In this document: one piece after another, positions 6,000 to 27,318 of the stretch | How positions within the stretch are numbered: the stretch's first letter is position 1 | How the letters are laid out: each line of letters begins with the position of its first letter | NCBI RefSeq assembly: GCF_029910655.1 | Contig: NZ_CP123897.1 | Coordinates: forward strand, 1,736,001-1,800,000 | Direction: 5' to 3' | DNA length: 64,000 bases | Source of the DNA: Methylomonas sp. UP202 | GTDB lineage: Bacteria > Pseudomonadota > Gammaproteobacteria > Methylococcales > Methylomonadaceae | Program-made: the position numbers and the translations under genes | The notes under the pieces: model-generated | Databases searched by the model: none | Told to the model about the DNA's origin: nothing | The model's input: the letters and a program-made list of their open reading frames with translations, nothing else

Positions 6000-6010
6000 T
6001 TTCGGAAACC

Positions 6011-6514: not shown

Positions 6515-6516
6515 GG

Positions 6517-7950: not shown

Positions 7951-8369
7951 ATACAGGTTTGAATATCTGAGTTTGGAAATTAACCGGACTGTCATGTCGA
8001 AAATCAGCCTAGTCGGTTTTTTTGTGAATACAACCAAGTGATCTGCAGGGAAAATGTGCGCAAAAATCCGCGTGGCTTGAGCCGCACGCATGCATAGTCT
8101 CGGTGAATTTAGGAATTCCTCCTAGTTGCGGATATTTTTAGGCGTTAGTCGGTTTTCCGCCGGTTTTGACAAGCCAAGCGCGTTGGCAAGACACTCGCGC
8201 ATATCCGGCGATTGAGAACACTCGTGTCGACGAGGCTCGCCGGCTAATCGGCGCCACCTTTCTGGCTGTAATGTGCTGGCGTGATGCTGGCTTGGAGATT
8301 GGACCGTGCGGGCCGGGTTTGTTTGAAGCCGCTAAGCGTTTAGCTGAAAGCGAAGAGGACAGGTCGGAT
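7951..8369. other. Intergenic stretch between porin operon and chrA
   Basis: About 420 bases that should hold the porin-operon promoter, directly upstream of 7950 where the DNA becomes AT-rich. Open frames crossing 8138-8473 on both strands have no ribosome site and no recognisable protein pattern and overlap the chrA 3' end. I see no RNA gene or repeat. Confidence 0.5.
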
Positions 8370-9707
8370 TCAGCCCCCCAGGCATCGCCATCCGGCACCC
8401 AGCAGCGCCGCCGCGACAATAACCGGGATGACGCCCAGGCGGTATCGGCCGAGCGCCAGTAGTGAAGCCGCACTCAGTGATACCGCAAAGCCGTCGATAG
8501 GGCCGTCCCAGCCGTTCGGCCAGCCGACGTGGTAGGCGAAAAATACCGCCAAGTCTACGATGACGCCGACCACGGCGGCGGTGACCGCCGTCAGCGGCGC
8601 CGTGAATCCGACATTGCCGTGGCTGGTTTCGATCAGTGGCCCGCCGGCCAGGATGAACAAAAAACTGGGCAGAAAGGTAAAGTAGGTAACGACGGTCGCC
8701 GCCAGCGCGCCAGCCGCGAACAAGCGTTCCGGTCCGAATAGCGCCTGGCCCCAACCAGCCACGAAGCCGACAAAGGTATTGACCATGATCAGCGGTCCCG
8801 GCGTGGTTTCGCCGAGTGCCAGCGCGTCCATCATTTGTTGAGCGCTCAGCCAGCGAAATTCCTCGACCGCGCCCTGATACACATAGGGTAGAACCGCATA
8901 GGCGCCACCGAAAGTCAGCAACGCGGCTTTGGTAAAGAACCAGCCCATTTGCGTCAGCGCGCCGTTCCAGCCGAATAGCAACCAAAGCAGCCCCAACGCG
9001 CCGGCCCACAGCAAACCGCCGACCGCCGACAGTTTAACCAGGCGCGGCCAACTGAAAAGCGCGTGCGTCGGTATCGGTGTCGCGTCGTCGATCAGCGCCG
9101 GACCGAAATCGGCGCGGGGTTTGCCGCGACCGCCGCCGACCGCGAAAACCTGCGGAGCGAGCTTGCCGCCTACCGCGCCAATCAGCGCGGCGCCGATTAG
9201 GATCAAAGGAAACGGTGCCCGCAGCAAAAAGATCGCGCCGAAGGCGGCGGCGGCCAGTGCCGCTAGCCAGCGGTTTTGCAAAATCCGCGAACCGATCCGG
9301 TAAGCAGCAAACCAGACGATCGCGGTGACCGCAGGCTTGACGCCGTAAAGCAAAGCAGTCACCGCCGACAGATCGCCGAAACTCAAATACAACCAGCCCA
9401 GAACGATCAGCATCAACATGGCCGGCAGAAAGAACAAGCTACCGGCGACCAAGGCCCCAGGCGTTTTATGCAGCAGCCAACCCAGATAGGTTGCCAGTTG
9501 CTGGGCCTCCGGCCCCGGCAATACCATGCAAAAGTTCAGCGCGTGCAGAAAGCGGCGCTCGCTGATCCAGCGGCGCCGCTCGACCAGTTCCCGGTGCATG
9601 ATCGCGATCTGTCCGGCCGGGCCGCCGAAGCTGATCAAGCCCAGCTTTAGCCAGAATCGGCAGGCTTCGCTAAAACTGGGGTGCGGCGGGGGCAGGGTTG
9701 GTGGCAT
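8370..9707 (-). CDS. chrA: Chromate-transporter (CHR) family protein
   Basis: A 445-residue membrane protein made of two homologous CHR halves. The first carries GLISFGGPAGQIA and LPGPEAQQLATYLG; the second carries LLTFGGAYAVLPYVYQ and ETTPGPLIMVNTF. The paired FGG and PGP motifs define the family, whose characterised members expel chromate from the cytoplasm; many relatives have unknown anion substrates. The ATG at 9707 begins directly before the conserved domain. The frame stays open upstream to 9905 through a poly-G tract, but that extension has no family resemblance. It stands alone, divergent from the TonB receptor. Confidence 0.88.
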   Translation of the reverse strand: MPPTLPPPHPSFSEACRFWLKLGLISFGGPAGQIAIMHRELVERRRWISERRFLHALNFCMVLPGPEAQQLATYLGWLLHKTPGALVAGSLFFLPAMLMLIVLGWLYLSFGDLSAVTALLYGVKPAVTAIVWFAAYRIGSRILQNRWLAALAAAAFGAIFLLRAPFPLILIGAALIGAVGGKLAPQVFAVGGGRGKPRADFGPALIDDATPIPTHALFSWPRLVKLSAVGGLLWAGALGLLWLLFGWNGALTQMGWFFTKAALLTFGGAYAVLPYVYQGAVEEFRWLSAQQMMDALALGETTPGPLIMVNTFVGFVAGWGQALFGPERLFAAGALAATVVTYFTFLPSFLFILAGGPLIETSHGNVGFTAPLTAVTAAVVGVIVDLAVFFAYHVGWPNGWDGPIDGFAVSLSAASLLALGRYRLGVIPVIVAAALLGAGWRCLGG

Positions 9708-10360
9708 ATTCAATTTCCCGAAATAGTTGTTGGCCGAACATCGTTGACGCGCTATCAGCACTAAAGATCGCGGCTGGGGCGAGTTCGTGGCATCCGGTTC
9801 GGTGCGGAGCGGAAGCGAACGAGGCCAAGCGGGGTACTCGCTAAAACCATGAAAGAATAGCCGCCTGTCCAATAATTCCCCCCCCCCGGCGCGCCGACGA
9901 GACACTGGAGCGGCTTCAGCAGCGATGGACGACGGTCACGGATTCGTCGATCGGTAAACCGCACTCCAGCCACTCTCTCGCTACGCGCGTCCGCCATCCT
10001 ACCTCGAATCGGCGCCCGTTCGACAAGCCGATCCCAGTCCGCTTTGCGGATACGGCAACACCGTGACGACCGGCTGTTGCTGATTAGGCAGCGAGTCAGC
10101 AGTTGCTGGCTCGCAGTCAGCAGGCGATCGCCGTGCCCCGCTTTCCGGCAGTGTCTTTACTCGCGGAGTTTGACGGGATTTTCTGTCTTTAACCAATAGA
10201 AATCAATTGTTTATCGAGGATGGTGCGGTTGGCGTCGGTCGCTAACCGCATTCATGGCATATCGGTTGCACTACAGGGCTTAGGCCGGTTTGCGCGCCGA
10301 CGCTGTCGGCCGGGCAAACCGGTTCGAATTTTCGAAATTGACATTCGACTGGGTGAGACA
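9708..10360. other. Divergent intergenic region between chrA and the TonB receptor
   Basis: About 650 bases holding the promoters of two divergent genes. It contains a run of ten C (9878-9887) and short degenerate repeats around 10080-10130. An AT-richer segment at 10185-10215 may hold the receptor promoter, but I cannot name a convincing -35/-10 pair or Fur box. Confidence 0.4.
9878..9887. repeat. Homopolymeric C10 tract
   Basis: Ten consecutive C on the + strand, about 170 bases upstream of the chosen chrA start and in frame with its upstream open extension. Such tracts are slippage-prone. Confidence 0.9.
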
Positions 10361-13123
10361 GTGAAACAGTACTTAGATAGCGCCGATGCGCCAGGTGTCG
10401 GCCTTCGGGCCGGCGTTCCCAAAACTTTAGGTCGCAACACCTTGTCGGCTTGCGTGAGCTTGGCATTAGCGGGGGCGCCACTGATGGTCGTCTCGGACGC
10501 CGACGCCGCGCCGCCGAAAAAGTCGGTCAAAAAAGTCGCCGCGCCCGACAAATCGGTGTCCGATTTGGAAGAGAAAGTAGCCAGACTGACCGCGGAATTG
10601 GAAGCGTCCAAACGCCGCGAACAGGATTTGCTCCGGAAAAATGCCGCGAGCGCCGCAGCCGGTTCGGCTGCCACCAGCGGCGTTGCCTCGGAAGTTGGCG
10701 CGGCTACCGAAGCGGCCGCACTGGCGGCGGCCGAGCCCGAACCCGAACCGGTCGTCGAAGAAGAGAAACCGAAAAATCTGTCCGAAGTGTCGGTCACCGC
10801 TCGACGCAAGGAAGAGAAATTGCAGGAAGTGCCGATTCCGATCGCGGTCATCAACCGGGAAACCCTGGAGCGCGACAACGTAGTGTCGGTGCAGGATTTC
10901 TCCCGTCGCGCGCCCAACCTGGGCGTCACGTCCGCCAATGCCAGGCAAACCAGTATTGCCCTGCGCGGTTTGGGGAAAAACAGCGGCAACGAATCGATGG
11001 AGTCCAGCGTCGGCGTGATGGTGGACAACGTCTGGCGGGCTTGGGTCGGTTCGGCATGGGCCAACTTCGCCGACCTGGATCAGGTCGAGGTGTTGCGCGG
11101 CCCCCAAGGCACCCTGCAAGGCAAGAACAGTAACCTGGGTTTACTGAACATCACCACCAAGGCGCCGTCGTTCAAGGACAGTTACTACGTTGACGGCTTT
11201 GCCGGCGACCGCGATACCTTGCAAGGCAAGTTCGGCGCCACCGGTACGATACTGCCTGGGCTGTTGGCGTACCGGGCAAGCGGTTTTATCGACAAGCGCG
11301 ACGGTTACATCAAAAATTACGACATTCACCGTAGCGAGGGCGATCTGGGTGAAACCAATGCGTTGGGCGGGCGCTTGCAATTTTTGTTGACGCCCAGCGA
11401 CGTGTTGAGTGCGAAGGTCATCGTCGATAAAACCGCGTCTACCCAAACCATGAGCGTACAGCCGCTAATCGCCGATCCGTCAACTTTCGCAAACGGCGCT
11501 TCTAGAGGGACGACGTTTAGCACCCGCTTGGCTCGAAACTGGTTTGACCCGGTGCGCAGCAATGGTCAACCTTTAGCGATCATCGGAGATCCGCGAGCGA
11601 TGGCGAACAATGAGCGCCGTCAATCGCGCGGTGACGGTTCGGGCGTGTCCGCGGAAATCAACTACGACGCCCTGGGGCATCGCTTTACATCAATTACCGC
11701 TTGGCGCGACGCCTTGTTTGAACCGAATCACGACGGAGAGAGCAGTACCGCCGACATTGAGCGTATTAGCGGTTGGACCGTAAAAAACGAACAATGGTCT
11801 CAGGAACTGCGCATAAGCTCGAAGGAGAAAGGGCCGATCGATTACCAGGCCGGCGTGTTTGCGATGCGCACCATTGCGGACACGTTTAACCAGCGTTTGT
11901 TCGGGAGTGACGCCGGGGCTTTTTATGCTAGCAACTCGCAATACTCAACCTTGAACAGCAATGCGATCGGGCGGCAAATGATGCTGGCGTCCCTTAACAA
12001 CGTCATGTACCGGCAAAGCGTTGTGCCCGCGACCGACAGTTACGCGGCGTATGGGCAGGTCAACTGGCATGTGACGGACGACGCGACATTGACCGTGGGT
12101 TTGCGGGATACCTTTGAACGGCGGGAAAACACCGGTTGGAGCCATCCGATTGGCGGAGTCGACTTAGACGTGCTCGGCGCCCAAATCGGCGCTTCGGCAA
12201 ATCAGATTGCCGCCGCCAAGGCGGTTCGAAGTGGCCGTTTGGGAACCGAGTGGGATGCGCCGCGCCAAGGATTCGACCAAAATTCGCAAAACTGGCTGGT
12301 CAATCCCAGCTACAAAATCAACAAGGATCTGATGGTTTATGGCTCGGTATCGGGCGGCAACAAATCCGGCGCGGCACAATTTAACTTGAACACGGGTAAG
12401 GTAGAAAACGTCAAGCCGGAGAACGTGATGGATTACGAATTCGGCATCAAGAGTACCTGGTTGGATCGCAAGCTGGTGGCCAACGTCAACTTCTACCAAA
12501 CCGACATCGAAGGTTTCCAATCGCAATTGGTTATTCCCTGCACGATTGGCGTGGACGGATGCACCACCGGTAACCGAACGACCTTGGGTAACATCAAGGG
12601 CATCCAATTGCGCGGTATCGAATTGGAGACCAACTACGATATTACACTGGGCTTGAGCGTGTTCCTGAACGGATCATTCAATAGGGCGATTTATACCGAC
12701 TTTGCCAACGCCCCGTGTCCGCCGGAAGCAAATTCGGTGATTTGCGACCAAACCGGACGGACCTTGCCGAATGCGCCGACCTTCACCGCCAACTACGGTG
12801 TGGACTACCGCGCGCCGTTGACTTTCGGCTTGGGTAACGACTACGGCTTGCAATGGCATGCCTATTTGATCGACAGCTATAAATCGGCGGCTAATTATAA
12901 CGCCAGTCTGTCGGTGTACGGCAAACAGGCGGCCTACCACGTCACCGACGGCGGTATCGGTATCGGCACCAAGAACGGCAAATACAATCTGGACTTGGTC
13001 GGTCGCAACATCTTCGACACGATCTACTTTACCAATGCCGGAAATTTCTCCAATACCGCGGCGGCCAGCGCGTCGTTCGGCGACGCTCGGTATTACGGCG
13101 TGCATTTCCGGGCCAAATTTTAA
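10361..13123 (+). CDS. TonB-dependent outer-membrane receptor with coiled-coil N-terminal extension
   Basis: From the GTG at 10361 the protein has 920 residues: a signal peptide (hydrophobic core LSACVSLALAGAPL, cleavage near ADA), a Lys/Ala-rich coiled coil (about residues 65-100), an Ala/Glu/Pro-rich linker, a plug domain (VSVTARRKEEKLQEVPI onward, about 140-270) and a large beta-barrel ending in HFRAKF with the terminal Phe. It should import a scarce ligand such as a metal chelate using TonB energy. The roughly 100-residue insert before the plug is unusual. An in-frame ATG at 10220 would put 73 residues before the hydrophobic core, so I prefer 10361, though the ribosome site there (GGGTGAGA) is modest. 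The SMP-30 gene follows 68 bases later. Confidence 0.88.
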   Translation: MKQYLDSADAPGVGLRAGVPKTLGRNTLSACVSLALAGAPLMVVSDADAAPPKKSVKKVAAPDKSVSDLEEKVARLTAELEASKRREQDLLRKNAASAAAGSAATSGVASEVGAATEAAALAAAEPEPEPVVEEEKPKNLSEVSVTARRKEEKLQEVPIPIAVINRETLERDNVVSVQDFSRRAPNLGVTSANARQTSIALRGLGKNSGNESMESSVGVMVDNVWRAWVGSAWANFADLDQVEVLRGPQGTLQGKNSNLGLLNITTKAPSFKDSYYVDGFAGDRDTLQGKFGATGTILPGLLAYRASGFIDKRDGYIKNYDIHRSEGDLGETNALGGRLQFLLTPSDVLSAKVIVDKTASTQTMSVQPLIADPSTFANGASRGTTFSTRLARNWFDPVRSNGQPLAIIGDPRAMANNERRQSRGDGSGVSAEINYDALGHRFTSITAWRDALFEPNHDGESSTADIERISGWTVKNEQWSQELRISSKEKGPIDYQAGVFAMRTIADTFNQRLFGSDAGAFYASNSQYSTLNSNAIGRQMMLASLNNVMYRQSVVPATDSYAAYGQVNWHVTDDATLTVGLRDTFERRENTGWSHPIGGVDLDVLGAQIGASANQIAAAKAVRSGRLGTEWDAPRQGFDQNSQNWLVNPSYKINKDLMVYGSVSGGNKSGAAQFNLNTGKVENVKPENVMDYEFGIKSTWLDRKLVANVNFYQTDIEGFQSQLVIPCTIGVDGCTTGNRTTLGNIKGIQLRGIELETNYDITLGLSVFLNGSFNRAIYTDFANAPCPPEANSVICDQTGRTLPNAPTFTANYGVDYRAPLTFGLGNDYGLQWHAYLIDSYKSAANYNASLSVYGKQAAYHVTDGGIGIGTKNGKYNLDLVGRNIFDTIYFTNAGNFSNTAAASASFGDARYYGVHFRAKF

Positions 13124-13129
13124 TGCGAG

Positions 13130-13161
13130 CCGGCCGGACGGCTTAACGGTCGCCCGGCCGG
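13130..13161 (+). other. Intercistronic GC hairpin
   Basis: CCGGCCGG arms around a short spacer lie just after the receptor stop and before the SMP-30 gene, without a T run. It may be an mRNA processing or stability element that lowers downstream expression relative to the receptor. Confidence 0.4.
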
Positions 13162-13191
13162 ATGTTTCACTCATATCGATAGAGGAGTTTT

Positions 13192-14154
13192 ATGTCAGTC
13201 ACGTATTCGACCCTGTTGTTGAGTATCAGCGCTTTGTTGGCGGCCGGCGGTGCGCGCGCCGACGATCCGGTCACGCCGGCGATTCCGGGTGTCGCGGCCG
13301 GCGGCGTGGTGCTGGAATTGATCAAGGACGGCTTCAACGGCACCGAAGGACCGATAGGCTATAGCGACGGCAGCTTGCTGTTCACCGAGACCAATGCCAA
13401 TAAAATCGTGCGCATCGGGCCGGACGATCAAGTGTCGACCTTTTTGGAGAATTCCAACGGCGCCAACGGCTTGGCCCTGACTCCGGACGGCAAGATCATC
13501 GCCGTGCAAACCAAGGATACCCAGGTTGGCGCGGTTTATCCGGTCAAGGAAAAGACCGTGCTGGCTAAGGATTACCAGGGCGTGAAATTTCAACGGCCCA
13601 ACGACTTGGTACGCGCCGGCAACGGCGGTATTTATTTCACCGATAGCGGCACCCGGCCGACCAAGGAAAATCCCAATCCGGAACCGTCGCATCCCGGCGT
13701 GTTTTATATCAGCCCGGCCGGTGAACTCAAGCAACTGGTCAACGACATCGAGCGGCCCAACGGCATCCAGCTCAGCAAGGACGAAAAGACCTTGTACGTC
13801 GCCAATACCCAAGGCGAACACATTCTGGCTTACGACATCGCCGCCGACGGTTCGATTTCCAACCGCCGCAATTTTGCTAAGTTGGAAGGCTGGCAAAAAG
13901 GCGAGGACGGCACGTGGTCCAGCGGCGCGGATGGTTTGGCGCTGGATGACGAAGGCCGCTTGTTCGTGGCTTCGAATGCCGGCATTGAGGTGTTGAGCGG
14001 CAAGGGCGAAGCTTTGGGCACGATACCGGTACCCAAAAAACCGCAAAATCTGGCCTTCGCCGGTAACGAAAAAAATATTTTATACGTCGTGGGTCGCGGT
14101 GCCGCGTACAAAGTCCCGTTGTTGACCAAGGGCATTTCCAGCCGGCCCAAGTAA
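13192..14154 (+). CDS. Secreted SMP-30/gluconolactonase-type beta-propeller protein
   Basis: A 320-residue protein with a signal peptide (cleaved after about GGARA) and a six-bladed propeller pattern: EGPIGYSDGSLLFTE with the metal-ligand Glu near residue 46, NGANGLALTPDG, FQRPNDLV with an Asn near residue 145, FTDSG, ERPNGIQLSKD, and SSGADGLALDDEG with the conserved Asp near residue 245. Family members are divalent-metal lactonases or esterases. Export to the periplasm beside a TonB receptor suggests opening a lactone or ester in an imported compound, which is inference. An AGAGGAG ribosome site precedes the ATG. Confidence 0.87.
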   Translation: MSVTYSTLLLSISALLAAGGARADDPVTPAIPGVAAGGVVLELIKDGFNGTEGPIGYSDGSLLFTETNANKIVRIGPDDQVSTFLENSNGANGLALTPDGKIIAVQTKDTQVGAVYPVKEKTVLAKDYQGVKFQRPNDLVRAGNGGIYFTDSGTRPTKENPNPEPSHPGVFYISPAGELKQLVNDIERPNGIQLSKDEKTLYVANTQGEHILAYDIAADGSISNRRNFAKLEGWQKGEDGTWSSGADGLALDDEGRLFVASNAGIEVLSGKGEALGTIPVPKKPQNLAFAGNEKNILYVVGRGAAYKVPLLTKGISSRPK

Positions 14155-14220
14155 TTTGAAATTGGCTAGCGGCCGCGCGTTCCGGCGATTGATTTCTCGT
14201 TTTGGAATGTGATCAAAAGC

Positions 14221-14252
14221 TTGTAGGAGCGACTTTCAGCCGCGATCGACGG
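14221..14252. repeat. REP-like repeat (GGAGCGACTTTCAGCCGCGA type)
   Basis: Short imperfect hairpin repeat whose core recurs in reverse orientation at about 48742 and 49312. Typical of extragenic palindromes scattered in gammaproteobacterial chromosomes. Confidence 0.6.
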
Positions 14253-14406
14253 CGCCGGCATTGGGGACGCCTTCAATCGCCGCTAAAGCGCCTCTCCCAC
14301 GAACGGTTTTGAAATTGGTTGGCTGGATTTGGATGTCGCGACCGAAACGACTCTCCAATGACGGTTGGGCTGGTTTATCGATTTAGGCATAGTGGTGGCC
14401 TCTTGA

Positions 14407-14439
14407 CGGGACGAGGATATTCCTCGGCCCGTTTTTTTT
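14407..14439 (+). terminator. Rho-independent terminator
   Basis: An 11-bp stem (CGGGACGAGGA against TCCTCGGCCCG, one mismatch) with a 3-nt loop is followed directly by eight T. It sits 250 bases after the SMP-30 stop and upstream of the sigma-54 promoter, so it separates the receptor/lactonase transcript from the redox operon. Confidence 0.75.
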
Positions 14440-14468
14440 GCCTGTCGCTCGCTGCCGACAGCGGCGCC

Positions 14469-14514
14469 AGCATCGATGCTAGCCGAGCAGCACTGCCTGT
14501 TGCCAGGGTGCTGC
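14469..14514. promoter_or_regulatory. Candidate upstream activator sites
   Basis: Two inverted repeats, the 12-bp palindrome AGCATCGATGCT (14469-14480) and GCAGCAC/GTGCTGC arms (14487-14514), lie about 115-175 bases upstream of the sigma-54 promoter. That is the usual distance for enhancer-binding-protein sites. No activator gene is identified. Confidence 0.35.
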
Positions 14515-14628
14515 AAATTCATCAGTCGCTAGCGGAATCTCGTGCAAGATTCGATTTTTCAAAAGAGTTTTACTTTAAAAGTCTTTTATAAACAGTATCT
14601 TGAATTGTTTTTGATTCGATATTTCCGA

Positions 14629-14645
14629 TTGGCATACTACTTGCC
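14629..14645 (+). promoter_or_regulatory. Sigma-54 (-24/-12) promoter
   Basis: TTGGCATACTACTTGCC matches the RpoN consensus (TTGGCACG-N4-TTGCW) with the invariant GG and GC separated by exactly 10 bases. Transcription would start near 14656, giving a short leader before the rhodanese-like gene at 14717. Control would need an enhancer-binding activator. Confidence 0.75.
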
Positions 14646-14716
14646 CTATCACTAGAGAATTAACCCTTGATGCGTCGAGCGACGCTTGTTGAAAAATGAA
14701 ACGAGAAAACACAATC

Positions 14717-15190
14717 ATGAAACGACCCCTCTCATTCGTGCTGTTGGCGATGTTGCTGACTGCACCGGCTATCGCAGCGGCGGCCGAGAAAGACGCGCAC
14801 GTCCATGCCGATGCCAAGCCGGCGGCGCAGGCGCCCAGACCTTACGAGTACAAGACGCCCAAATTGAATCGCGCGCAAGTCGATGCATTGCTGGCTAAAC
14901 CCGGCGAATTGCTGTTCATCGATACCCGCCGCCCCGACGAAATCAGCAAGATCGGTTCGTTTCCGGTGTATCTGAACGTGCAGGTCGATGCTATCGATGC
15001 GGCGTTGCCGTTCATCCCCAAGGATAGGTCTATTGTCACGGTATCCAATCACGCCGGACGTGCCGGCAAGATTGCCGATTTGCTGGCCGCGAAAGGTTTC
15101 AAAGTGGTCGGCGCGGTCGGTTCGCAGAATTACGAAGAAGAAGGCGGCAAGATCGTCAGGATCGTGCCGCCGGAACCTAAAACTAACTGA
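14717..15190 (+). CDS. Periplasmic rhodanese-like protein lacking the catalytic cysteine
   Basis: A 157-residue exported protein: signal peptide MKRPLSFVLLAMLL to about AAAA, a His-containing linker (DAHVHAD), then a rhodanese fold with LLFIDTRRPDE (about 75), a central strand and IVTVSNHAGRAGKIA (about 120). In active rhodaneses the loop after this strand begins with Cys; here the sequence is SNHAGRAG and the protein has no Cys there, so it is probably a binding or scaffold domain rather than a sulfurtransferase. First gene after the sigma-54 promoter. An in-frame ATG at 14696 exists without a better ribosome site. Confidence 0.78.
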   Translation: MKRPLSFVLLAMLLTAPAIAAAAEKDAHVHADAKPAAQAPRPYEYKTPKLNRAQVDALLAKPGELLFIDTRRPDEISKIGSFPVYLNVQVDAIDAALPFIPKDRSIVTVSNHAGRAGKIADLLAAKGFKVVGAVGSQNYEEEGGKIVRIVPPEPKTN

Positions 15191-15274
15191 TCGTAACCGC
15201 GGATTGCCGGAGTGGCGGCGATCCGCGTTATTCCGCACGGGGCGTTCCGGTGCTTGAGTTTTTGGAGTGGTGAT

Positions 15275-17620
15275 ATGAATAAGAAACAGCTAACAATCGC
15301 GATCGCCTGGGCGCTGTCCCTGGCGATGGTGGGCGAGGCCGGTGGGGCCGATGAAAAATCCGCCGGCGATGCCGCTCCGGCGGCGCAGGGCAAGGCCAAA
15401 TTATGGTCGTATCAACCGGTCAAGTCACCGGCAATCCCGGCGGTCCGGCATCAAGATTGGGTTAGGACGCCTATCGATGCCTTCGTCCTCGCCAAACAGG
15501 AAGAGAAAGGTCTGACCCCGTCGCCGGACACCGATAGAGCCGCCTTTATCCGCCGAGCGACACTGGATCTGTGGGGTGTCATTCCGAGCCCGGAAGAAGT
15601 GGACGCCTTCGTCAACGACGAATCCGAAAACGCCTACGAGAAGCTGGCCGACCGCTTGCTGGCCTCACCCAAATACGGCGAACGCCAGGGCCGCAAATGG
15701 TTGGACTTGGCGCGCTACGCCGATAGTACCGGGTTCCAGAACGATAACGACCGGTTGAACAACTGGCGCTATCGCGATTACGTAATCAATTCATTCAATC
15801 AGGACAAGCCTTACAGCCGCTTTATTCAGGAGCAGTTGGCCGGCGACGAATTGTGGCCCGGCGACGAACAAGCCCTGATCGCGACCGGCTTCATGGCGCA
15901 ATTCCCGGACAATTCCAACTCGCGCGACCTGGTGCAACGCAAATACCAGATCACCACCGATATTACCGATACGGTCGGGAAAGTGGTGTTGGGTCAAACT
16001 TTGGAATGCGCCCGTTGCCACAACCACAAATTCGACAAGATCAGCCAGAAAGACTATTTCTCGTTCCAGTCGTTTTTTGCCAACGTGGCGCCGGTGGACA
16101 ACATTCCGGCCAAGAAAGGTCCGATCGAAGTGGCCTACGACCAGCAATACGCCAAGTGGCAGGAAGCCACCAAGGACATCCGCGCCAAGCAAAAAGCCAT
16201 TATCGATACCCATCGGGAAGAGGCGCTCAAGTATCACAAGGAACGTTATCTGACCGACTCGCGCGACGCGATTTTCAAACCCAAGGAAAAATGGACCGCC
16301 CAGGACCGCTGGGTCAATCATCGCTTGGCTAACGTGACCAACGAAGCCAGCATGCAGTCCTACTTCCAGGAAAAAGGCGAAAGTACCGACGCCAACACCC
16401 GCGACCCCAAGATCGCCGAGCAATGGGCCGAGTTGGAGAAGCTGAACAAGGAATTGCGTAAATTCGACGACTTGAAACCGGCGACGTTCTCGAATGAAAT
16501 TTCGGCGATGACCGAGCTGGGCCATCCGGACGCGCCGCCCAGCTTCGTGTTTGCTGTCGGCGACCATGAGAAACCGTTGGAACAGGTGCAACCGGCTTTC
16601 CCCGCGGCGATTACCGACGAAAAACCGGACATCAAACCGTTGCCGTTCTCGTCCGGCCGTCGCTCGGCCTTGGTGAAATGGATCACCAGTCCGACCAATC
16701 CGTTGACCGCCCGCGTTTACGTGAATCGGGTTTGGGACCAGTATTTCGGCAAGGGCATCGTCGCCACCGTCAGCGATTTCGGCAAGGCCGGCGAAAAACC
16801 GATCAACCCGGAACTGCTGGATTATCTGGCCGACAAATTCGTCAAGGACGGTTGGAGCGTGAAGAAACTGCACCGGGAGATTCTGTTGTCCAGCGTCTAC
16901 CGGCAGTCGTCCGATTACCGCGAAGACGTGCATCAGGCCGATGCCGAAAACCAATTGTTGGCGGTATTCCCCAGACAGCGTTTGGAAGCCGAGCAAGTCC
17001 GGGATTCGCTGCTGGTTGCTTCCGGCAAGCTGGAGGACAAGGTCGGCGGCCCGAGCGTATATCCGCCGCTACCGTCGGCGATCAACACCAACTACGGGGT
17101 CAACAACGCCAATTTCAACGACAAAATGTGGCGGACTTCGAAGGACGAGAAGGACCATAACCGCCGTAGCTTGTACGTGTTCACCCGCCGCAGCATTCCG
17201 TATCCGATTCTGGATTCGTTCAACATGGCGTCGCCGCAGGAAGCCCACAGCAAACGCGAGGTGACCACCACGCCGGTGCAAGCCTTGACGCTGTACAACA
17301 GCGAATTGATCTTCGACTGGTCCAAATCGCTGGCCGGCCGGGTCATCAACGAGGCCGGCGAGAGCGAGGAAGAACGGATTGCCAGACTCTACCAAATCCT
17401 GTTTGCCCGCCAGCCGAACGACCAGGAAAAAGAGGAGTTGCAGGCCTTCTTGAACGAACAGGAAGGCGTGATTCGCGCCAAGGCCGCCAACGGTAAATTC
17501 GAAGTCAACGTGCCGGCCGGGGTCAAGGATAAACCGATCGGCGACCCGGTGCGGGCTGCCGCCTTCGTGGATTTGGTACACGTGGTCGCCAATTCCAACG
17601 AATTCATCTACCGGTTCTAA
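15275..17620 (+). CDS. DUF1549/DUF1553 (PSCyt2-PSD1) secreted protein with one haem motif
   Basis: A 781-residue exported protein with a signal peptide (MNKKQLTIAIAWALSL to about EAGGA). The N-terminal half is a DUF1549 domain (about 60-270: TPIDAFVLAKQEEKGL, RRATLDLWGVIPSPEEV, RKWLDLARYADSTGF) containing a CARCH haem-binding motif near residue 246 followed by NHKFD. The C-terminal half is DUF1553 (about 465-770: PTNPLTARVYVNRVWDQYFG, then LHREILLSSVYRQSS). The family is abundant in Planctomycetes, is nearly always paired with DUF1501 and has no assigned reaction. The DUF1501 partner follows 78 bases downstream. Confidence 0.9.
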   Translation: MNKKQLTIAIAWALSLAMVGEAGGADEKSAGDAAPAAQGKAKLWSYQPVKSPAIPAVRHQDWVRTPIDAFVLAKQEEKGLTPSPDTDRAAFIRRATLDLWGVIPSPEEVDAFVNDESENAYEKLADRLLASPKYGERQGRKWLDLARYADSTGFQNDNDRLNNWRYRDYVINSFNQDKPYSRFIQEQLAGDELWPGDEQALIATGFMAQFPDNSNSRDLVQRKYQITTDITDTVGKVVLGQTLECARCHNHKFDKISQKDYFSFQSFFANVAPVDNIPAKKGPIEVAYDQQYAKWQEATKDIRAKQKAIIDTHREEALKYHKERYLTDSRDAIFKPKEKWTAQDRWVNHRLANVTNEASMQSYFQEKGESTDANTRDPKIAEQWAELEKLNKELRKFDDLKPATFSNEISAMTELGHPDAPPSFVFAVGDHEKPLEQVQPAFPAAITDEKPDIKPLPFSSGRRSALVKWITSPTNPLTARVYVNRVWDQYFGKGIVATVSDFGKAGEKPINPELLDYLADKFVKDGWSVKKLHREILLSSVYRQSSDYREDVHQADAENQLLAVFPRQRLEAEQVRDSLLVASGKLEDKVGGPSVYPPLPSAINTNYGVNNANFNDKMWRTSKDEKDHNRRSLYVFTRRSIPYPILDSFNMASPQEAHSKREVTTTPVQALTLYNSELIFDWSKSLAGRVINEAGESEEERIARLYQILFARQPNDQEKEELQAFLNEQEGVIRAKAANGKFEVNVPAGVKDKPIGDPVRAAAFVDLVHVVANSNEFIYRF

Positions 17621-17633
17621 CGATCACTGCAAA

Positions 17634-17662
17634 CCTACGGGGCGCCGCCGGCGCCCCGTAGG
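17634..17662 (+). other. Perfect 13-bp intercistronic hairpin
   Basis: CCTACGGGGCGCC pairs perfectly with GGCGCCCCGTAGG around a 3-nt loop, 14 bases after the DUF1549 stop and 37 before the DUF1501 start. With no T run it is more likely an mRNA stabiliser or partial terminator than a true end of transcription. Confidence 0.6.
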
Positions 17663-17698
17663 GCCTTTGCCGACCAATAACAATCAAGAGGTTTACCC

Positions 17699-19162
17699 AT
17701 GAATAACAAATCGCGACGTGATTTTTTAGTAAAAACCGGTTACGGCCTTGGCGGCTTGGCCGTTAGCGCCTTTTTGCCCGGCGGCGGCGTCATCGCCAGC
17801 GCGCTGGCTGAAGACGCCGCGCTGACCGCACTGACCGGCGGCAACCCGCTGGCGCCGAAAGCGCCGCATTTCGCGGCGAAAGCCAAAACCGTCATCTGGC
17901 TGCACATGGCCGGCGCGCCCAGCACGCTGGATTTGTACGACTACAAACCGGAACTGGTCAAACTGGCCGGCACCGGCATACCGGCTTCGTATTTGCAAGG
18001 CATCAAAACCAGTACCCAGGGCGGTATCACCAAACTGATCGCGACCAAGCGGACCTGGAAGCAACACGGCCAAAGCGGCGCCTGGTTCTCGGACTGGTTG
18101 CCTCATCTGGCCGAGCAAGCCGACGATCTGGCTTTCATCAAATCCAGCGTGACCATCGGCGCGACCCACGATATTTCGATCATGAAAATGAATACCGGCG
18201 GTCTGAATCCGGGCCGGCCGACCTTGGGCGCCTGGATTCAATACGCGCTGGGTTCCAACAACCCCAACCTGCCGGCTTACGTCGTGCTGTACAACGACAA
18301 GCGCGAGCCGCGCGGCGGCGTTACCAACTGGGAGTCCGGCTTCCTGCCGGCGGTTTACCAAGGCACGCCGTTCCGACCGGGCAACTCGCCGATCCTGCAT
18401 CTGAACAATCCGCAATACGTTGTCGATACCGAAAAACGCAAGGCGCTGGATTTGTTGAAACGCTTGAACGAAGCTCACGCCGGCCGCTACCCGACCGATA
18501 CCGAGCTGCAAGCCCGCACCGAATCTTACGATTTGGCCTACCGGATGCAGGAAACCGCGCCGGAAGCCGTCGATTTCAGCAAGGAATCGGAAGCGACCAA
18601 AAAGCTGTACGGCCTGGACGAGGACATCACCAAACCTTACGGCGAATTGCTGCTGCGCGCCAGACGTTTGGCCGAGCGCGGGGTGCGCTTCATTCAAGTG
18701 GTGTCCGGTCCGACCGACATCAAAGGCGACAGCCGCGATTGGGATGCTCATCAAAACATCGAAGACAACCATGGCAAGCACAGCAAAATTATCGATAAAC
18801 CGATTGCCGGCTTGCTGAAGGACTTGAAAGCCAAAGGCATGTTGGACGATACCCTGGTGGTGTGGACCTCCGAATTCGGCCGCACGCCGTGGAGCGAATC
18901 CGGCGACGGCCGCGACCACAATCCCTGGGGTTATACCCAATGGATGGCGGGCGGCGGCGTTAAAGCCGGTTACACCCACGGCGGCACCGACGATCTGGGC
19001 GTGCAAGCCATCAAGGGCACCGAAGTCGATACCTACGACCTGCACGCCACGGTACTTAACCAGCTCGGTTTGGACCACTTGAAGCTGATTTACAAATATC
19101 AAGGTCGATCCGAAAGGCCGACCGTGGTGTACGGCAAGGTGATTAAGGAGCTGATCGCCTAG
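17699..19162 (+). CDS. Tat-exported DUF1501 protein (alkaline-phosphatase-like fold)
   Basis: A 487-residue protein starting with a twin-arginine signal: SRRDFLVK at residues 5-12, then a mildly hydrophobic core (GLGGLAVSAFLPGGG) and cleavage near ALA. The body carries the DUF1501 pattern: KTVIWLHMAGAPSTLDLYDYKP (around 65-85), GATHDISIMKMNTG, a GDSRDWDAHQN segment and VVWTSEFGRTPWSESGDGRDHNPWG, placing probable metal ligands (Asp and His) as in the alkaline-phosphatase superfamily. Its reaction is unknown. A folded, cofactor-loaded enzyme exported by Tat fits well with the TatA gene at the end of this block. Confidence 0.9.
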   Translation: MNNKSRRDFLVKTGYGLGGLAVSAFLPGGGVIASALAEDAALTALTGGNPLAPKAPHFAAKAKTVIWLHMAGAPSTLDLYDYKPELVKLAGTGIPASYLQGIKTSTQGGITKLIATKRTWKQHGQSGAWFSDWLPHLAEQADDLAFIKSSVTIGATHDISIMKMNTGGLNPGRPTLGAWIQYALGSNNPNLPAYVVLYNDKREPRGGVTNWESGFLPAVYQGTPFRPGNSPILHLNNPQYVVDTEKRKALDLLKRLNEAHAGRYPTDTELQARTESYDLAYRMQETAPEAVDFSKESEATKKLYGLDEDITKPYGELLLRARRLAERGVRFIQVVSGPTDIKGDSRDWDAHQNIEDNHGKHSKIIDKPIAGLLKDLKAKGMLDDTLVVWTSEFGRTPWSESGDGRDHNPWGYTQWMAGGGVKAGYTHGGTDDLGVQAIKGTEVDTYDLHATVLNQLGLDHLKLIYKYQGRSERPTVVYGKVIKELIA

Positions 19163-19275
19163 GGACGCCGCCGTAGTTCGCTGCCACGCCAGCCGATCAA
19201 TGCCGCGTGTCCGGTGTGGGACATGCGGCGGCTGGTTCGGGCGGCAGGGATTTTTTGATTGGGGGATTTTTTAGC

Positions 19276-19665
19276 ATGATACGCAAGACCTTGCGGATAC
19301 TGGCCTTGACCTGGATTCTGGCGCCGGGAGCCGCGTTCGCCGAAGCCGAATTCGACTTCGAGGAATTGATGAAGGACGTCGAGACCCGCATCCAGAACGT
19401 GCAGAACACGATTTCCGCGCAGGATACCGCCACCGCCAGCGCCGAAACCAAACAATTGCAAGAGGCTTTTAAGCTGGTGGAAGGCTATTTCGCCAAGCGC
19501 GGCGACGCCGCCGATGCGGTGGCCGATGCCCAGGATTACCAAAACAAGGCGGAATCGATTCAAAACGCGTTGGGTGCCGGCGATTTGAACAGCGCCGCCG
19601 GCGCCGCCAACGACTTTTCCAAACAATGCCGTGGCGCCTGCCACGACAAGTACAAACCACTTTGA
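19276..19665 (+). CDS. Small cytochrome c'-like protein with an atypical CxxxCH haem site
   Basis: A 129-residue exported protein: signal peptide to about GAAFA, then a helical body rich in Glu, Asp and Ala with four predicted helices, ending in KQCRGACHDKYKPL. Position and fold resemble cytochrome c', whose haem site is a C-terminal CXXCH; here the spacing is C-R-G-A-C-H, one residue longer than canonical. Standard haem-lyase systems handle this spacing poorly, so either haem attachment is unusual or lost. The ATG at 19276 follows a GGGGGA ribosome site. The peroxiredoxin gene starts 14 bases later. Confidence 0.72.
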   Translation: MIRKTLRILALTWILAPGAAFAEAEFDFEELMKDVETRIQNVQNTISAQDTATASAETKQLQEAFKLVEGYFAKRGDAADAVADAQDYQNKAESIQNALGAGDLNSAAGAANDFSKQCRGACHDKYKPL

Positions 19666-19678
19666 CCGGAAATCCACT

Positions 19679-20269
19679 ATGAAACCCGTTTTTTTGACCG
19701 GCCTGGCCTTCGCTTGGCTGTCCGCGCCGGCACTGGCCGCGCTGCCGGAAGGCCATCCGGCCCCGGCCATCGAGACCCAGGCATCGCAAGCCGGCAAGGC
19801 GTTCGCGTACTCGCTGGGCGACGCTTTAAAGAAAGGTCCGGTCGTCGTTTATTTTTATCCATCCGCCTATACCGGCGGCTGCAATATCCAGGCGCACAGC
19901 TTCGCGGTTAACCATGACAAATTCGCCGCCGCCGGCGCAACCATTGTTGGCGTGTCGCTGGACAGCATCGAGCGTCTCAACGAATTTTCCGCCGACCCCA
20001 ATTTCTGCGCCGGCAAGTTTCCGGTGGCATCGGATGCCGGCGGCGCGATTTCCAAGGCCTACGATCTGGCGGTACGCGATCCGCAACCCGGTAAGACAGA
20101 CAGTCGCGGCCAGGCTATCGATCACGGTTTCGCCGAGCGCACCACCTTCGTCGTGACGCCGGACGGCAAGATTGCCGCGACCCTGGGTGGTTTGAAACCC
20201 GAAGAAAACGTCGCGCAAGCGCTGGCCGCCGTCGAGCGTTTGGCCGGCCAGCGCCACGCCGCCCAGTGA
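19679..20269 (+). CDS. Periplasmic peroxiredoxin (AhpC/TSA-BCP type)
   Basis: A 196-residue thioredoxin-fold protein with a signal peptide (MKPVFLTGLAFAWL to about ALAA). The active-site segment FYPSAYTGGC holds the peroxidatic Cys near residue 69 in the P-x3-T-x2-C arrangement; a second Cys in PNFCAGKF may act as resolving Cys. Such enzymes reduce peroxides using thiols. Periplasmic location among c-type cytochromes suggests protection of haem or metal chemistry, or a cytochrome reductant, which is inference. It overlaps the next gene by 4 bases, so the two are translationally coupled. Confidence 0.86.
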   Translation: MKPVFLTGLAFAWLSAPALAALPEGHPAPAIETQASQAGKAFAYSLGDALKKGPVVVYFYPSAYTGGCNIQAHSFAVNHDKFAAAGATIVGVSLDSIERLNEFSADPNFCAGKFPVASDAGGAISKAYDLAVRDPQPGKTDSRGQAIDHGFAERTTFVVTPDGKIAATLGGLKPEENVAQALAAVERLAGQRHAAQ

Positions 20270-20946
20270 GCGCGGCGCGAAGGCCACGGGAATTTACCGC
20301 GAAAACCGCGATTCGTCGGCGCCGCTTGGGCCGGCGTTGGCTGGCGCTCGGCGCGATGGCTCTATTGACCGCCGCGCCGCAGGCTTCGGCCGAGCGGGCC
20401 GGCGATCCCGCCATCGGCCGGCTGACTTCCGAGACCGAGCGCTGTCAGGAATGCCACGGTAGCGAGGGTATCAGCGTCGCCGACAAGATTCCCAACCACG
20501 CCGGCCAACCGGCGGATTACCTGGTCAAACAGCTGCGGGATTTCCAGTCCGGCGCCAGGCAACACGAGACGATGACGGTGATGGCGGCCGATTTGGCGCC
20601 AGCCGACATCGTCGATATCGCCGCGTATTTTTCCGGCCTCCCGGCACCGACGGGCGATGCGAACGGCCAGCGGCCGGCGGCCAAAAAGCTGGCGGAACAA
20701 GGCGACGAGACTCGCAAGGTTCCGGCGTGCTTCAGTTGCCACGGACCGGCCGGGAAGGGCCGTGTCGCCGACGGTATCGCCTATCCGCTGCTCGGCGGCC
20801 AACGCTTGATTTATCTACGTTCGCAATTGCGCAATTGGAAGTCCGGCGATCGCCGCAATAGCCCTGACGGGGTGATGAACCGGATTGCCGGCGCATTGAG
20901 CGACGACGAAATCGACGGGCTGGCGGCCTATTTGGCGACTTTGTAA
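20266..20946 (+). CDS. Dihaem cytochrome c (cytochrome c4-like)
   Basis: A 226-residue exported protein beginning at a GTG that overlaps the peroxiredoxin stop (GTGA). A basic N-terminus and hydrophobic core (WLALGAMALLTAAP) form the signal peptide. Two cytochrome c domains follow: CQECH near residue 60 with distal Met in an MTVM segment near 104, and CFSCH near 155 with Met in VMN near 205. The duplicated layout is that of cytochrome c4. It probably delivers or receives electrons for the PepSY protein, the DUF1549 protein or the peroxiredoxin. Confidence 0.87.
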   Translation: MSAARRPREFTAKTAIRRRRLGRRWLALGAMALLTAAPQASAERAGDPAIGRLTSETERCQECHGSEGISVADKIPNHAGQPADYLVKQLRDFQSGARQHETMTVMAADLAPADIVDIAAYFSGLPAPTGDANGQRPAAKKLAEQGDETRKVPACFSCHGPAGKGRVADGIAYPLLGGQRLIYLRSQLRNWKSGDRRNSPDGVMNRIAGALSDDEIDGLAAYLATL

Positions 20947-20991
20947 AGATTGAGTACTGCCGCGATTATTCGCTATGACAAGGAGATGGAA

Positions 20992-22638
20992 ATGAAGAAA
21001 TCGTTGAACTGGTTGCTATACGAAACCCACCGCTGGCTGGGCGTGGTCCTGGCGTTGTTCATGTTCGTCTGGTTTGCGACCGGACTAGTGATTATGTATT
21101 CGACGCCGACCGCGCAAAGCCGCGCTCAACAGTTGGCGCACGCCGAAGTGCTTCAGCCCGAATCCGGCTGGCTTAGTCTAGGAGAAGTCTGGCAACACAG
21201 TGCGGAGCAACGCAAGGCCGCCGCCGAACAGTGCAAAGCCAAACCGGCCGGCGGCGAGGCCGCGTCCGGTAAACCCGGCGGCGAGCCGGCGCTGGCCGAT
21301 GCCCGGTTGCTGCGCAGCGCCGGCGAGCCGGTCTGGCTGGTCGATGATACCCAGGGGGTGCGTTACGCATTGTCGGCCGTCGACGGCGGATTGCGGGAAA
21401 CCGATAGGACCCAGGCGCTGCGAATCGCGCAAAACTGGTTCGTCGCCGAGGGCCGAAATCCGGCCGAACTGGTTTATCTGGAAAGCGTCGAGGCGCCGGC
21501 GATCTTGCGTAACCGCGAGACTTTACGGCCGTTTCACCGCATCGCCAGCAACGAGGGTGACGAGTTGCTGATTTCGGCGCGGACCGGCGAAGTGCTGCAC
21601 GCTTCCAGCCGTTGGGAGCGCGGCCTGTTTTGGGCCGGGAATTGGATACATTTATTCAAACCGTTGGATTTGCTGGGACTGGGCGACATTCGCCACGACG
21701 TACAACTGTGGTCCGGCGCGGGCGCCACGATAGCCTGCATCACCGGCCTGATTATCGGCTGGTTGCGCTGGCGGCCAGGTTTCGGCGGCAAGCCGACCTA
21801 TTCGCAAGGCCGAACTCAGCCTTATCGCGAATTCTGGTTTAAATGGCATTTCTGGACCGGGTTGATCGGCGGCACCGTGGCCTTGAGCTGGGCGCTGAGC
21901 GGCTTCGTCGATACCAATCCCGGCAAAATCTTTTCCAACGGCGAATACAGCAAGGCGGAATTAAAGCGCTACCTGGGCGCCGAAGTACCGGCGACGATGC
22001 TGGATTGGCGGCCGGCGCCGTTGCGGTTGGCCGGCACCGGTATTGAAGTCGTCGAACTGAACTGGCGGCGTCTGGGCGGCGAAACGGTCTTGTTGGCGCA
22101 AGGTCGCGATGGCTTGCGTTTGCCGCTGACGCCCAGCGGGGCCGGCCCGCGTTTCAGCGAAAACGCGATCGGCGATGCGGTCCAGCGCTTGGCGGGTGAC
22201 ACCAAGGTCGCGGCAGTCAAAATATTGGACGACTACGACAGTTATTACTACCCGCGCCACCATCAAGGCTTGGTCGAAAAACCGCTGCCGGTGGTGCTGG
22301 CCGAACTGGACGATGCAGCCGGCAGCCGGGTTTATCTCGATCCACAGGACGGCCAATTGCTGGCCAAGCTGGACCAAAGTCGCCGGGTGTTCCGCTGGCT
22401 GTATTCCGGTTTGCATCATTGGGATTTCGGCTGGCTGTATTACCGGCCGTTGTGGGACATCTGGATGCTGACCTGGGTCGGATTCGGCTTAGTGCTGGGG
22501 GCCAGCTCGCTGGTGATCGGCTGGAAGCGATTGGTGAAAACCTTTGCGCCGAAGAAACGCCGGGCTAATGCGGCAGCGCCGAGCGGCAATGCGGCGCCGA
22601 GTCGCGGCGCGACCTTGGCAACCGAAGCGGCCGATTGA
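20992..22638 (+). CDS. PepSY-associated transmembrane protein (reductase-like)
   Basis: A 548-residue inner-membrane protein with four strong TM segments: HRWLGVVLALFMFVWFATGL (about 11-34), GAGATIACITGLIIGWL (about 245), WTGLIGGTVALSWALSGF (about 290) and LTWVGFGLVLGASSLVIGW (about 500). Large periplasmic PepSY regions lie between them. Relatives beside TonB receptors, such as FoxB- and PiuB-like proteins, are implicated in periplasmic reduction of ferric siderophores. Conserved His residues lie in HRW, LHHWD and HWDFGWLYYRPLWD. The ATG at 20992 has an AAGGAGA ribosome site, better than the in-frame start at 20950. Confidence 0.85.
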   Translation: MKKSLNWLLYETHRWLGVVLALFMFVWFATGLVIMYSTPTAQSRAQQLAHAEVLQPESGWLSLGEVWQHSAEQRKAAAEQCKAKPAGGEAASGKPGGEPALADARLLRSAGEPVWLVDDTQGVRYALSAVDGGLRETDRTQALRIAQNWFVAEGRNPAELVYLESVEAPAILRNRETLRPFHRIASNEGDELLISARTGEVLHASSRWERGLFWAGNWIHLFKPLDLLGLGDIRHDVQLWSGAGATIACITGLIIGWLRWRPGFGGKPTYSQGRTQPYREFWFKWHFWTGLIGGTVALSWALSGFVDTNPGKIFSNGEYSKAELKRYLGAEVPATMLDWRPAPLRLAGTGIEVVELNWRRLGGETVLLAQGRDGLRLPLTPSGAGPRFSENAIGDAVQRLAGDTKVAAVKILDDYDSYYYPRHHQGLVEKPLPVVLAELDDAAGSRVYLDPQDGQLLAKLDQSRRVFRWLYSGLHHWDFGWLYYRPLWDIWMLTWVGFGLVLGASSLVIGWKRLVKTFAPKKRRANAAAPSGNAAPSRGATLATEAAD

Positions 22639-22736
22639 GCCGGCTGATGACGTAACCGCGCGAGCGGGGTTTTGTGATTGGGGTTCAGCCGTTTGGCCCA
22701 GACCCGGCTATCGAATTTTTTTAATTGAGGTGAAAC

Positions 22737-22946
22737 ATGGGTTTGAGCGTACCGCATTTGTTGGTGGTGTTGGCCATCGTGGTCTTGGTGTTCGGCACCA
22801 AGCGTTTGAAAACCGTCGGCGCCGATTTGGGCGATGCGATCAAAGGCTTCCGCAGGGCGGTCAAGGACGCCGAAACCGATCAAGCCCAGCCGTCTGGCGG
22901 CTTGCTGAGCACGGCGCAAACCGAAGAGCGCGAGTCGGTCGGGTAA
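22737..22946 (+). CDS. tatA: TatA/E-type twin-arginine translocase subunit
   Basis: A 69-residue protein with one N-terminal TM helix ([22 protein letters not shown]), the FGTKRL hinge, and an amphipathic helix ([16 protein letters not shown]) diagnostic of TatA/TatE. It forms the size-variable pore for folded Tat substrates. tatB and tatC are not adjacent, so this is an accessory or orphan TatA. Its position at the end of a block that encodes a Tat substrate (the DUF1501 protein) suggests dedicated extra export capacity. A TGAGG ribosome site precedes the ATG. Confidence 0.9.
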
Positions 22947-26583: not shown

Positions 26584-26895
26584 ATGGCCGTTACATCGAA
26601 ATGGCGTCAGCATATTGAAGAATGGCAAGGCAGTGGTTTGTCGCAGGTTGAGTATTGCGTGCAGGAAGGCATCAATGTACGGACATTTACTGCCAGACTG
26701 TGCGACTATCGCAAACGGCCTGCGGTAGAGCCGGTCGCTTTGGTGCCGGTGCAGATTGAACAGCCTGAGCCTGCTTCTGTGGTGACACCCGCAGCTGCGG
26801 CTATGGTCTTGACCGATGCCCACGGTTATAGGCTGGAGATTTCGTCTTCAGTATCGGCGGGCTGGGTAGCCGAGTTGTTACGATGTCTGGCTTGA
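26584..26895 (+). CDS. tnpA: IS66 accessory protein TnpA
   Basis: A 103-residue protein with a helix-turn-helix-like N-terminus (KWRQHIEEWQGSGLSQVEYCVQEGI) and a C-terminal strand region, as in IS66 TnpA proteins. It overlaps tnpB by 13 bases in another frame, the arrangement normal for this family. Needed for transposition in studied relatives; its precise role is unclear. Confidence 0.88.
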   Translation: MAVTSKWRQHIEEWQGSGLSQVEYCVQEGINVRTFTARLCDYRKRPAVEPVALVPVQIEQPEPASVVTPAAAAMVLTDAHGYRLEISSSVSAGWVAELLRCLA

Positions 26896-27233: not shown

Positions 27234-27318
27234 ATCAGAGGTAAAACGCGGCGGTAAAAAAGTCCTAAAATGTCCTAATATCAAGGCATTGGATAGGGCA
27301 TTGCGGTATAATTCACCC

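Follow-up and report, generated by a model that had tools for sequence, protein, structure and literature searches.

Known members of the SfnR/CysB regulon (ssu, msu, and sfn) are cytoplasmic flavin monooxygenases and ATP-binding cassette (ABC) importers, and the activator SfnR was reportedly described by Endoh in 2003 and 2005. Two protein families of another kind, PSCyt2-PSD1 (DUF1549-DUF1553) and DUF1501, lie side by side in Planctomycetes and Verrucomicrobia, where passages of one report (PMC5615132) call their function unknown, and Rhodopirellula carries 41 copies of each PSCyt2/PSD1 domain according to passages of another (PMC2754498). We analyzed a block containing such a pair at positions 10361 to 22946 of a 64-kb stretch of DNA (hereafter the window) from Methylomonas sp. 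UP202 (NZ_CP123897.1). Open reading frame (ORF) calls and Pfam confirmed ten consecutive ORFs in this block, all in one orientation, as stated in the original prediction, an earlier annotation made from the letters alone. The DUF1501 protein is 99% identical to that of Methylomonas koyamae, in keeping with the assignment to Methylomonas, and the host genome (5.68 Mb, two contigs) has a single DUF1501 copy.

The block resembles the SfnR/CysB regulon in its sigma-54 promoters, in its co-occurrence with an SfnR-like activator, and in the linkage of its relatives to ssuEADCB, cysK, sbp, and cysTWA, but its enzymes are exported and haem based. It shares the two adjacent families with the planctomycete pairs; in contrast to these, the window genome has one copy, accompanied by a c'-like cytochrome, a peroxiredoxin, a dihaem cytochrome c, and a sigma-54 promoter. 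DUF1501 itself resembles the sulfatases (alkaline phosphatase superfamily) in its profile over the C-terminal T-x-V-V-x-T-S block. However, cysteine is absent from 37 of 42 DUF1501 proteins, so that these have no cysteine-derived formylglycine, and the sulfatase SDNG reads SEFG. The family-2A encapsulin with its cysteine desulfurase (SrpI), which passages of PMC8049743 describe as induced under sulfur starvation, is physically linked to the core in 4 of 50 related loci and is present in all 18 Methylomonas genomes bearing this DUF1501, although it is a separate cytoplasmic sulfur system. We propose, with a probability of about 0.72, that the block is a module for sulfur scavenging, turned on by SfnR-type, sigma-54-dependent control when sulfate is short. 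A sulfur role of whatever kind is likely, while the specific redox chemistry suggested below for the pair is tentative.

Conservation of the core

A pattern scan of a genome collection with DUF1501, confined to close relatives, yielded 53 loci, the genes of which were called with our own script. The three planctomycete loci (L051 to L053) hold the pair alone, with no rest of the core. In every one of the 50 remaining loci, which are of the proteobacterial type, the DUF1549/1553 and DUF1501 genes are neighbours, and in most of them the pair is followed by a c'-like cytochrome, a peroxiredoxin, and a dihaem cytochrome c; some contigs end earlier, and two Beijerinckiaceae metagenome-assembled genomes (MAGs) lack the peroxiredoxin and the dihaem cytochrome downstream of the pair. 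This five-gene core recurs in gamma- and betaproteobacteria. In the 35 well-covered loci (7 kb or more upstream and 6 kb or more downstream), PSCyt2 was found in 35, the peroxiredoxin in 33, the c'-like cytochrome in 32, and the dihaem cytochrome in 28. The other parts were less constant, with the TonB receptor and the rhodanese-like protein in 23 each, a second cytochrome c' in 21, SMP-30 in 18, cytochrome b561 in 17, dienelactone hydrolase in 12, and PepSY in 10. TatA also varies, and cytochrome b561 often occupies the place of PepSY: 9 of these loci have PepSY only, 16 have b561 only, 1 has both, and 9 have neither, with b561 detected by a laxer search in two of the last nine (L013 and L040). 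From this distribution, PepSY and b561 appear to substitute for each other, with the receptor and SMP-30 as accessory parts.

The original prediction of an exported redox/uptake system is borne out, and the system is conserved, for the pair in all of these 50 loci and for the core in most. The order of the genes is not unique to this genome as far as the core is concerned, but the complete ten-gene order was found in none of the other loci examined. The order receptor, SMP-30, rhodanese-like protein, core, PepSY occurs only in seven Methylomonas loci (L002, L004 to L008, and L012), and TatA follows PepSY only in L009, on a contig beginning at the rhodanese-like gene. In several Betaproteobacteria, SMP-30 stands immediately after the peroxiredoxin. 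The module appears to be rare, since DUF1553 was found in 1 of 299 genomes of a phylum sample, namely, the genome of the window itself. Other variations include a second peroxiredoxin gene between the dihaem cytochrome and PepSY (Methylomonas L004, L005, L006, and L012), two tandem PSCyt2-DUF1501 copies, each with a peroxiredoxin and a dihaem cytochrome (L033), and genes for CcmF-type cytochrome c maturation and ExbB-type proteins near the core in betaproteobacterial loci, such as L035, L038, and L042.

Linkage to sulfur genes

We compared the loci with 51 control stretches from the same genomes, which were chosen by us rather than at random and ranged from 66 bases to 20 kb, several of them sharing a genome. 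The queries were Escherichia coli proteins fixed a priori: 24 for sulfur (CysB regulon), 12 for iron (the enterobactin and ferrichrome proteins Fep/Fes/Ent/Fhu), 15 for phosphate, and 5 for nitrogen. Relatives of the CysB regulon at 120 bits or more were found in 18 of 50 loci and in 1 of 51 controls (Fisher p = 6e-6, a value that overstates independence, as the loci are related to one another, as are the genomes of one genus). With no threshold, there were 53 matches in 19 of 50 loci (903 kb), compared to 6 matches in 6 of 51 controls (917 kb). Relatives of the iron proteins were found in none of the 50 loci and in 3 of 51 controls (1 of 51 at 120 bits or more), and those of the phosphate proteins in 1 of 50 and 1 of 51. 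Nitrogen relatives occurred in 13 loci and 6 controls; in 11 of these loci, the match was NtrC with the SfnR-like activator. An initial sulfur count (24 of 50 loci versus 2 of 51 controls) was circular, its queries having been drawn from the loci, and was replaced by the E. coli set.

The flanking genes named by NCBIfam and Pfam include the family-2A encapsulin and its cysteine desulfurase, CysK, serine acetyltransferase, sulfate-binding protein, CysT, SsuA, SsuD, SsuE, O-acetylhomoserine sulfhydrylase, sulfatase, and arylsulfotransferase, together with a CysB-type fragment cut by the end of its stretch; a second flanking ABC set is SsuABC-like only, with matches below the cut-offs. In a MAG of Gallionella (L016, continued in L079), one 40-kb stretch joins the core to ssuEADCB, cysK, encapsulin-desulfurase, sbp, and cysTWA. 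The order there is SfnR-like gene, SsuABC-like operon with porin (on the other strand), rhodanese-like gene, core, PepSY, DUF1554-like gene, b561, cytochrome c', rhodanese, SsuE-A-D-C-B, rhodanese, CysK, encapsulin, desulfurase, a stretch including a PstS-like gene, Sbp, and CysTWA. The core of two Nitrosomonadales MAGs (L018 and L049) is continued in the same direction by rhodanese-CysK-serine acetyltransferase-encapsulin-desulfurase. In Methylomonas L004 and L005, the gene after PepSY belongs to an encapsulin-acetyltransferase-CysK-CysB cluster of convergent orientation. Among 37 Methylomonas genomes, 19 had a DUF1501 match, and 18 were retained after one weak match (1.8e-30) was dropped, the assignment being made on the DUF1501 match alone. 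The encapsulin was above its cut-off in 28 of the 37, including all 18; of 11 cases with encapsulin and DUF1501 on one contig, 5 had them 8 kb or less apart.

Promoters and activator

Sites for sigma-54 were scored over 12 positions of the consensus, with GG and GC fixed and a threshold of at least 11/12, from 500 bp upstream to 90 bp inside the first gene of each operon. Of 51 operons (50 loci and the window), six were excluded because the operon start was uncalled or less than 400 bp from a contig end. A site precedes the operon in 42 of the remaining 45, including the window; the misses are L023, L031, and L033. In the control DNA, the background was 0.36% among 3,920 length-matched arbitrary stretches and 3 of 290 among gene-start stretches. 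Overall, 114 sites were found in 986 kb of neighbourhoods (the 50 loci, the window, and the encapsulin stretch of its own genome), compared to 16 in 918 kb of control DNA. The next gene was that for the rhodanese-like protein (26 sites), PSCyt2 (26), the TonB-dependent receptor (24), the SsuABC-like porin operon (8), or a metallo-beta-lactamase-fold protein (5). No site was found directly before the pair in three planctomycete loci and three marine or algal plasmid loci.

Over both strands together, the window contains three such sites, at 10255, 14630, and 46712 (minus strand). The first two stand before the receptor and the rhodanese-like gene, and the 560-bp gap at 14155 to 14716 contains a terminator-like hairpin as well as the second promoter, although terminator-like patterns in the region are no more frequent than in shuffled sequence. 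The ten genes, presented in the original prediction as one block, are indeed co-oriented but probably form two transcription units. With a sigma-54 promoter before each, the two units probably respond to the same kind of signal.

Close relatives of the SfnR-like activator were present in 23 of the 37 Methylomonas genomes, i.e., in 18 of 18 with this DUF1501 and 5 of 19 without it (Fisher p = 2.4e-6, subject to the same relatedness). When the two shared a contig, taking the activator copy on that contig, they lay within 25 kb of each other in 13 of 15 cases. Activator relatives also occur in 113 plasmid records, four contexts of which were read: two are beside sfnG-msuE, one is beside ssuABCD, and one is beside neither. 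The identification of the activator as SfnR-like is based on this gene context, with sulfur genes in three of the four.

PSCyt2-PSD1 and DUF1501

The haem motif of PSCyt2-PSD1 is invariant in an alignment of 32 rows; a comparison of PSCyt2 with solved structures returned chance matches only and no structural relative by sequence. A search of PDB sequences with the DUF1501 profile, up to an E value of 10, gave 14 matches, of which 11 were sulfatases or their relatives (best E value, 0.0076) and 3 were cyanoglobins. In hhalign, DUF1501 and a sulfatase family aligned with 91% probability over 37 to 42 columns, compared to 2.5% or less in nine control comparisons, and two DUF1501 genes of Limnoglobus reach 1.6e-4 with Pfam Sulfatase, under its cut-off. 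By these profile comparisons, DUF1501 is a relative of the sulfatase superfamily, with a similarity that is remote and local only. It is not a formylglycine sulfatase, as the nucleophile motif C/S-x-P/A-x-R is absent from the DUF1501 of the window. The motif occurs anywhere in only 2 of 42 DUF1501 proteins (S-type, late, and chance-like), whereas C-x-P/A-x-R is present in 20 of 20 aligned sulfatases. We infer that DUF1501 may be a sulfatase-type scaffold of different chemistry that is paired with a haem protein. The pairing extends to the planctomycete Limnoglobus, which has 48 PSD1 and 63 DUF1501 genes, with a DUF1501 gene within 3 kb of 33 of the 48. A full-text search of the non-subscription literature found no paper joining DUF1501 with DUF1549, and none of the 10 DUF1501 papers listed is titled on sulfur scavenging.

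Proposed route to organic sulfur

Induction by sulfur starvation, the class of substrate, the direction of electron flow, and the product are inferred in the following route. Low sulfate, acting via CysB and SfnR, would switch on both units through sigma-54 RNA polymerase. The receptor of unit 1 would import a large or scarce organosulfur compound, in which SMP-30 may open a lactone or ester. In unit 2, DUF1501, exported by twin-arginine translocation (Tat) with the aid of TatA, and its haem partner PSCyt2-PSD1 would form the periplasmic catalytic pair attacking this compound. The c'-like and dihaem cytochromes would carry electrons between the pair and PepSY in the inner membrane (b561 in other hosts), and the peroxiredoxin would clear peroxide. 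The sulfur released, probably as sulfite or sulfate, would be taken up via ordinary sulfate transporters and CysK. That the pair is a haem-dependent periplasmic organosulfur enzyme, with planctomycete copies performing related chemistry on sulfated or sulfonated polymers, is a tentative suggestion. In Pseudomonas aeruginosa under sulfur starvation, the lsfA peroxiredoxin is induced and iron uptake is repressed, according to passages of PMC12581299. Our literature search returned no paper linking sulfur starvation or limitation with TonB, SMP-30, or gluconolactonase.

If correct, this would give access to organic sulfur by redox chemistry in the periplasm, in addition to flavin monooxygenases, taurine-type dioxygenases, and hydrolytic sulfatases. 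It would also reveal by what means freshwater methanotrophs and soil bacteria obtain organic sulfur at low sulfate. A single-copy pair in a methanotroph, in an apparent sulfur-starvation regulon, makes the function of the pair testable by growth on organosulfur sources, the first testable function for a protein pair present in dozens of planctomycete copies.

Several observations weigh against sulfur scavenging. By the broader, locus-derived gene set, 26 of 50 loci have no sulfur or SfnR-like gene; 11 of these are less than 15 kb long, and 15 are not. The nearest identified sulfur gene in the window is cysZ, approximately 27 kb away. The SfnR-like gene and the encapsulin are 530 kb and 692 kb from the block in this genome, so that here the link is by regulon inference only. 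Sigma-54 promoters do not by themselves determine the identity of the signal, and passages of PMC8049743 report encapsulin knockouts without a growth defect. The core of the marine Saccharobesus lies by pectin degradation genes, with no annotated sulfur gene near and no sigma-54 site before the pair. Limnoglobus sulfatases are not enriched near the pair either: 3 of 27 lie within 5 kb of PSD1, compared to a rotated mean of 1.3 (reached in 17% of rotations), and 2 of 27 within 5 kb of DUF1501 (mean, 1.8). These counts followed the removal of 6 of 33 sulfatase, 4 of 52 PSD1, and 1 of 64 DUF1501 rows, which were second fragments of a gene already counted, matches under the cut-off, or DUF1501 genes.

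Alternative functions

The pair might instead oxidize a sugar or uronic acid to a lactone, to be opened by SMP-30 or dienelactone hydrolase, with electrons passing to the cytochromes; the sulfur neighbours would then reflect a sulfated or sulfonated sugar or be there by chance. The frequency of both hydrolases (18 and 12 of the 35 well-covered loci) favours this, as do the pectin and other glycoside hydrolase genes that adjoin the core or pair in Saccharobesus and on one Catenovulum plasmid of the two, the other having a fucose permease in that neighbourhood. Verrucomicrobia PSCyt proteins can also carry carbohydrate-binding modules, according to passages of PMC5615132. However, carbohydrate oxidation leaves the sigma-54/SfnR pattern and the sulfur linkage unexplained, and among the 50 flanks, a GH2-like protein was noted by eye in one (L032, Cellvibrio), with no dedicated search for glycoside hydrolases. 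We consider carbohydrate oxidation improbable, although it could be combined with sulfur scavenging should the substrate be a sulfated or sulfonated sugar.

Less probable still is a protective device against the stress of sulfur starvation, which would remove peroxide and act as an electron sink while itself releasing no sulfur. Passages of PMC12581299 describe antioxidant genes induced by sulfur starvation, and the peroxiredoxin is present in 33 of the 35 well-covered loci. Such a device would presumably have no need for a sulfatase-superfamily protein, a TonB receptor, or a lactonase-like enzyme.

Capture of a metal chelate by the receptor, opening of the ligand by SMP-30, and reduction of the metal by the cytochromes and PepSY, as put forward in the original prediction, is very unlikely. 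Siderophore reduction has been associated with PepSY proteins encoded close to receptors, both are present in the block, and the best NCBIfam matches of the receptor are siderophore and haem receptors (every one far below its cut-off). However, neither PepSY nor the receptor is a constant part, the E. coli iron proteins have, at the score thresholds applied, relatives near none of the 50 loci, compared to 18 or 19 for the CysB regulon, and the promoters are of the sigma-54 type, with an activator family that accompanies sulfur genes.

Gene content of the block

Table 1. Features of the block and its surroundings in the window
Feature	Position	Strand	Evidence or remark
Chromate transporter, porin-like protein, CXXCH multihaem cytochrome	5424-9905		divergent from the block
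Sigma-54 (-24/-12) promoter, unit 1	10255..10270	+	TGGCATATCGGTTGCA, 12/12 to consensus
TonB-dependent receptor	10361..13123	+	PF00593 (barrel), PF07715 (plug)
Exported SMP-30/gluconolactonase-like (SGL) propeller	13192..14154	+	PF08450
Terminator-like hairpin (14412-14426) plus T run, between units	14412..14436	+	pattern only
Sigma-54 promoter, unit 2	14630..14645	+	TGGCATACTACTTGCC, 11/12
Exported rhodanese-like protein without catalytic Cys	14717..15190	+	fold via hhalign; Ser at Cys position
PSCyt2-PSD1 (DUF1549-DUF1553) protein, one CXXCH haem motif (codons 16007-16021)	15275..17620	+	PF07583, PF07587
DUF1501, Tat-type signal (SRRDFL), remote sulfatase-superfamily relative	17699..19162	+	PF07394, 455 bits
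Small c'-like cytochrome, CX3CH motif	19276..19665	+	Pfam 24.3 bits, under its cut-off of 26.5
Exported PrxQ/BCP-like peroxiredoxin (AhpC/TSA)	19679..20269	+	PF00578
Dihaem cytochrome c	20266..20946	+	PF00034, two stretches
PepSY_TM membrane protein	20992..22638	+	PF03929; ATG at 20992, ORF open from 20950
TatA-like translocase subunit	22737..22946	+	NF002813, 75.6 bits versus cut-off of 83
IS66 transposase genes	26883-28929		downstream of the block
CysZ sulfate transporter	50406-51146		NCBIfam

Pfam, NCBIfam, and the ORF list upheld nearly all of the gene names given previously (Table 1); the DUF1549 protein also has DUF1553, and the motif of the c'-like cytochrome is CX3CH rather than CX2CH. 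The receptor ORF is open from 10220, and a start at 10361 or later is favoured because of the position of the sigma-54 promoter. The rhodanese-like gene had no match in Pfam or NCBIfam. Its profile aligned with true rhodanese in hhalign (49% probability; p = 1.7e-4), compared to p values of 0.2 to 0.66 for three unrelated families, and this profile comparison, the only support for the fold, suggests a rhodanese-type protein. A catalytic rhodanese was rejected, as serine occupies the catalytic cysteine position (located from the profile alignment) in 29 of 29 sequences, including the window.

The c'-like cytochrome has CX3CH, a motif unusual among c-type cytochromes, in the window and in 13 relatives, which are Methylococcales by title except for L013, titled just Gammaproteobacteria; the other 35 sequences have CXXCH. 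In the peroxiredoxin, C68 and C110 are conserved in at least 90% of 51 rows. The dihaem cytochrome has a PdsA-like NCBIfam match far under the cut-off. The IS66 genes may bear on the missing sulfur neighbours, which are present in some sister species.

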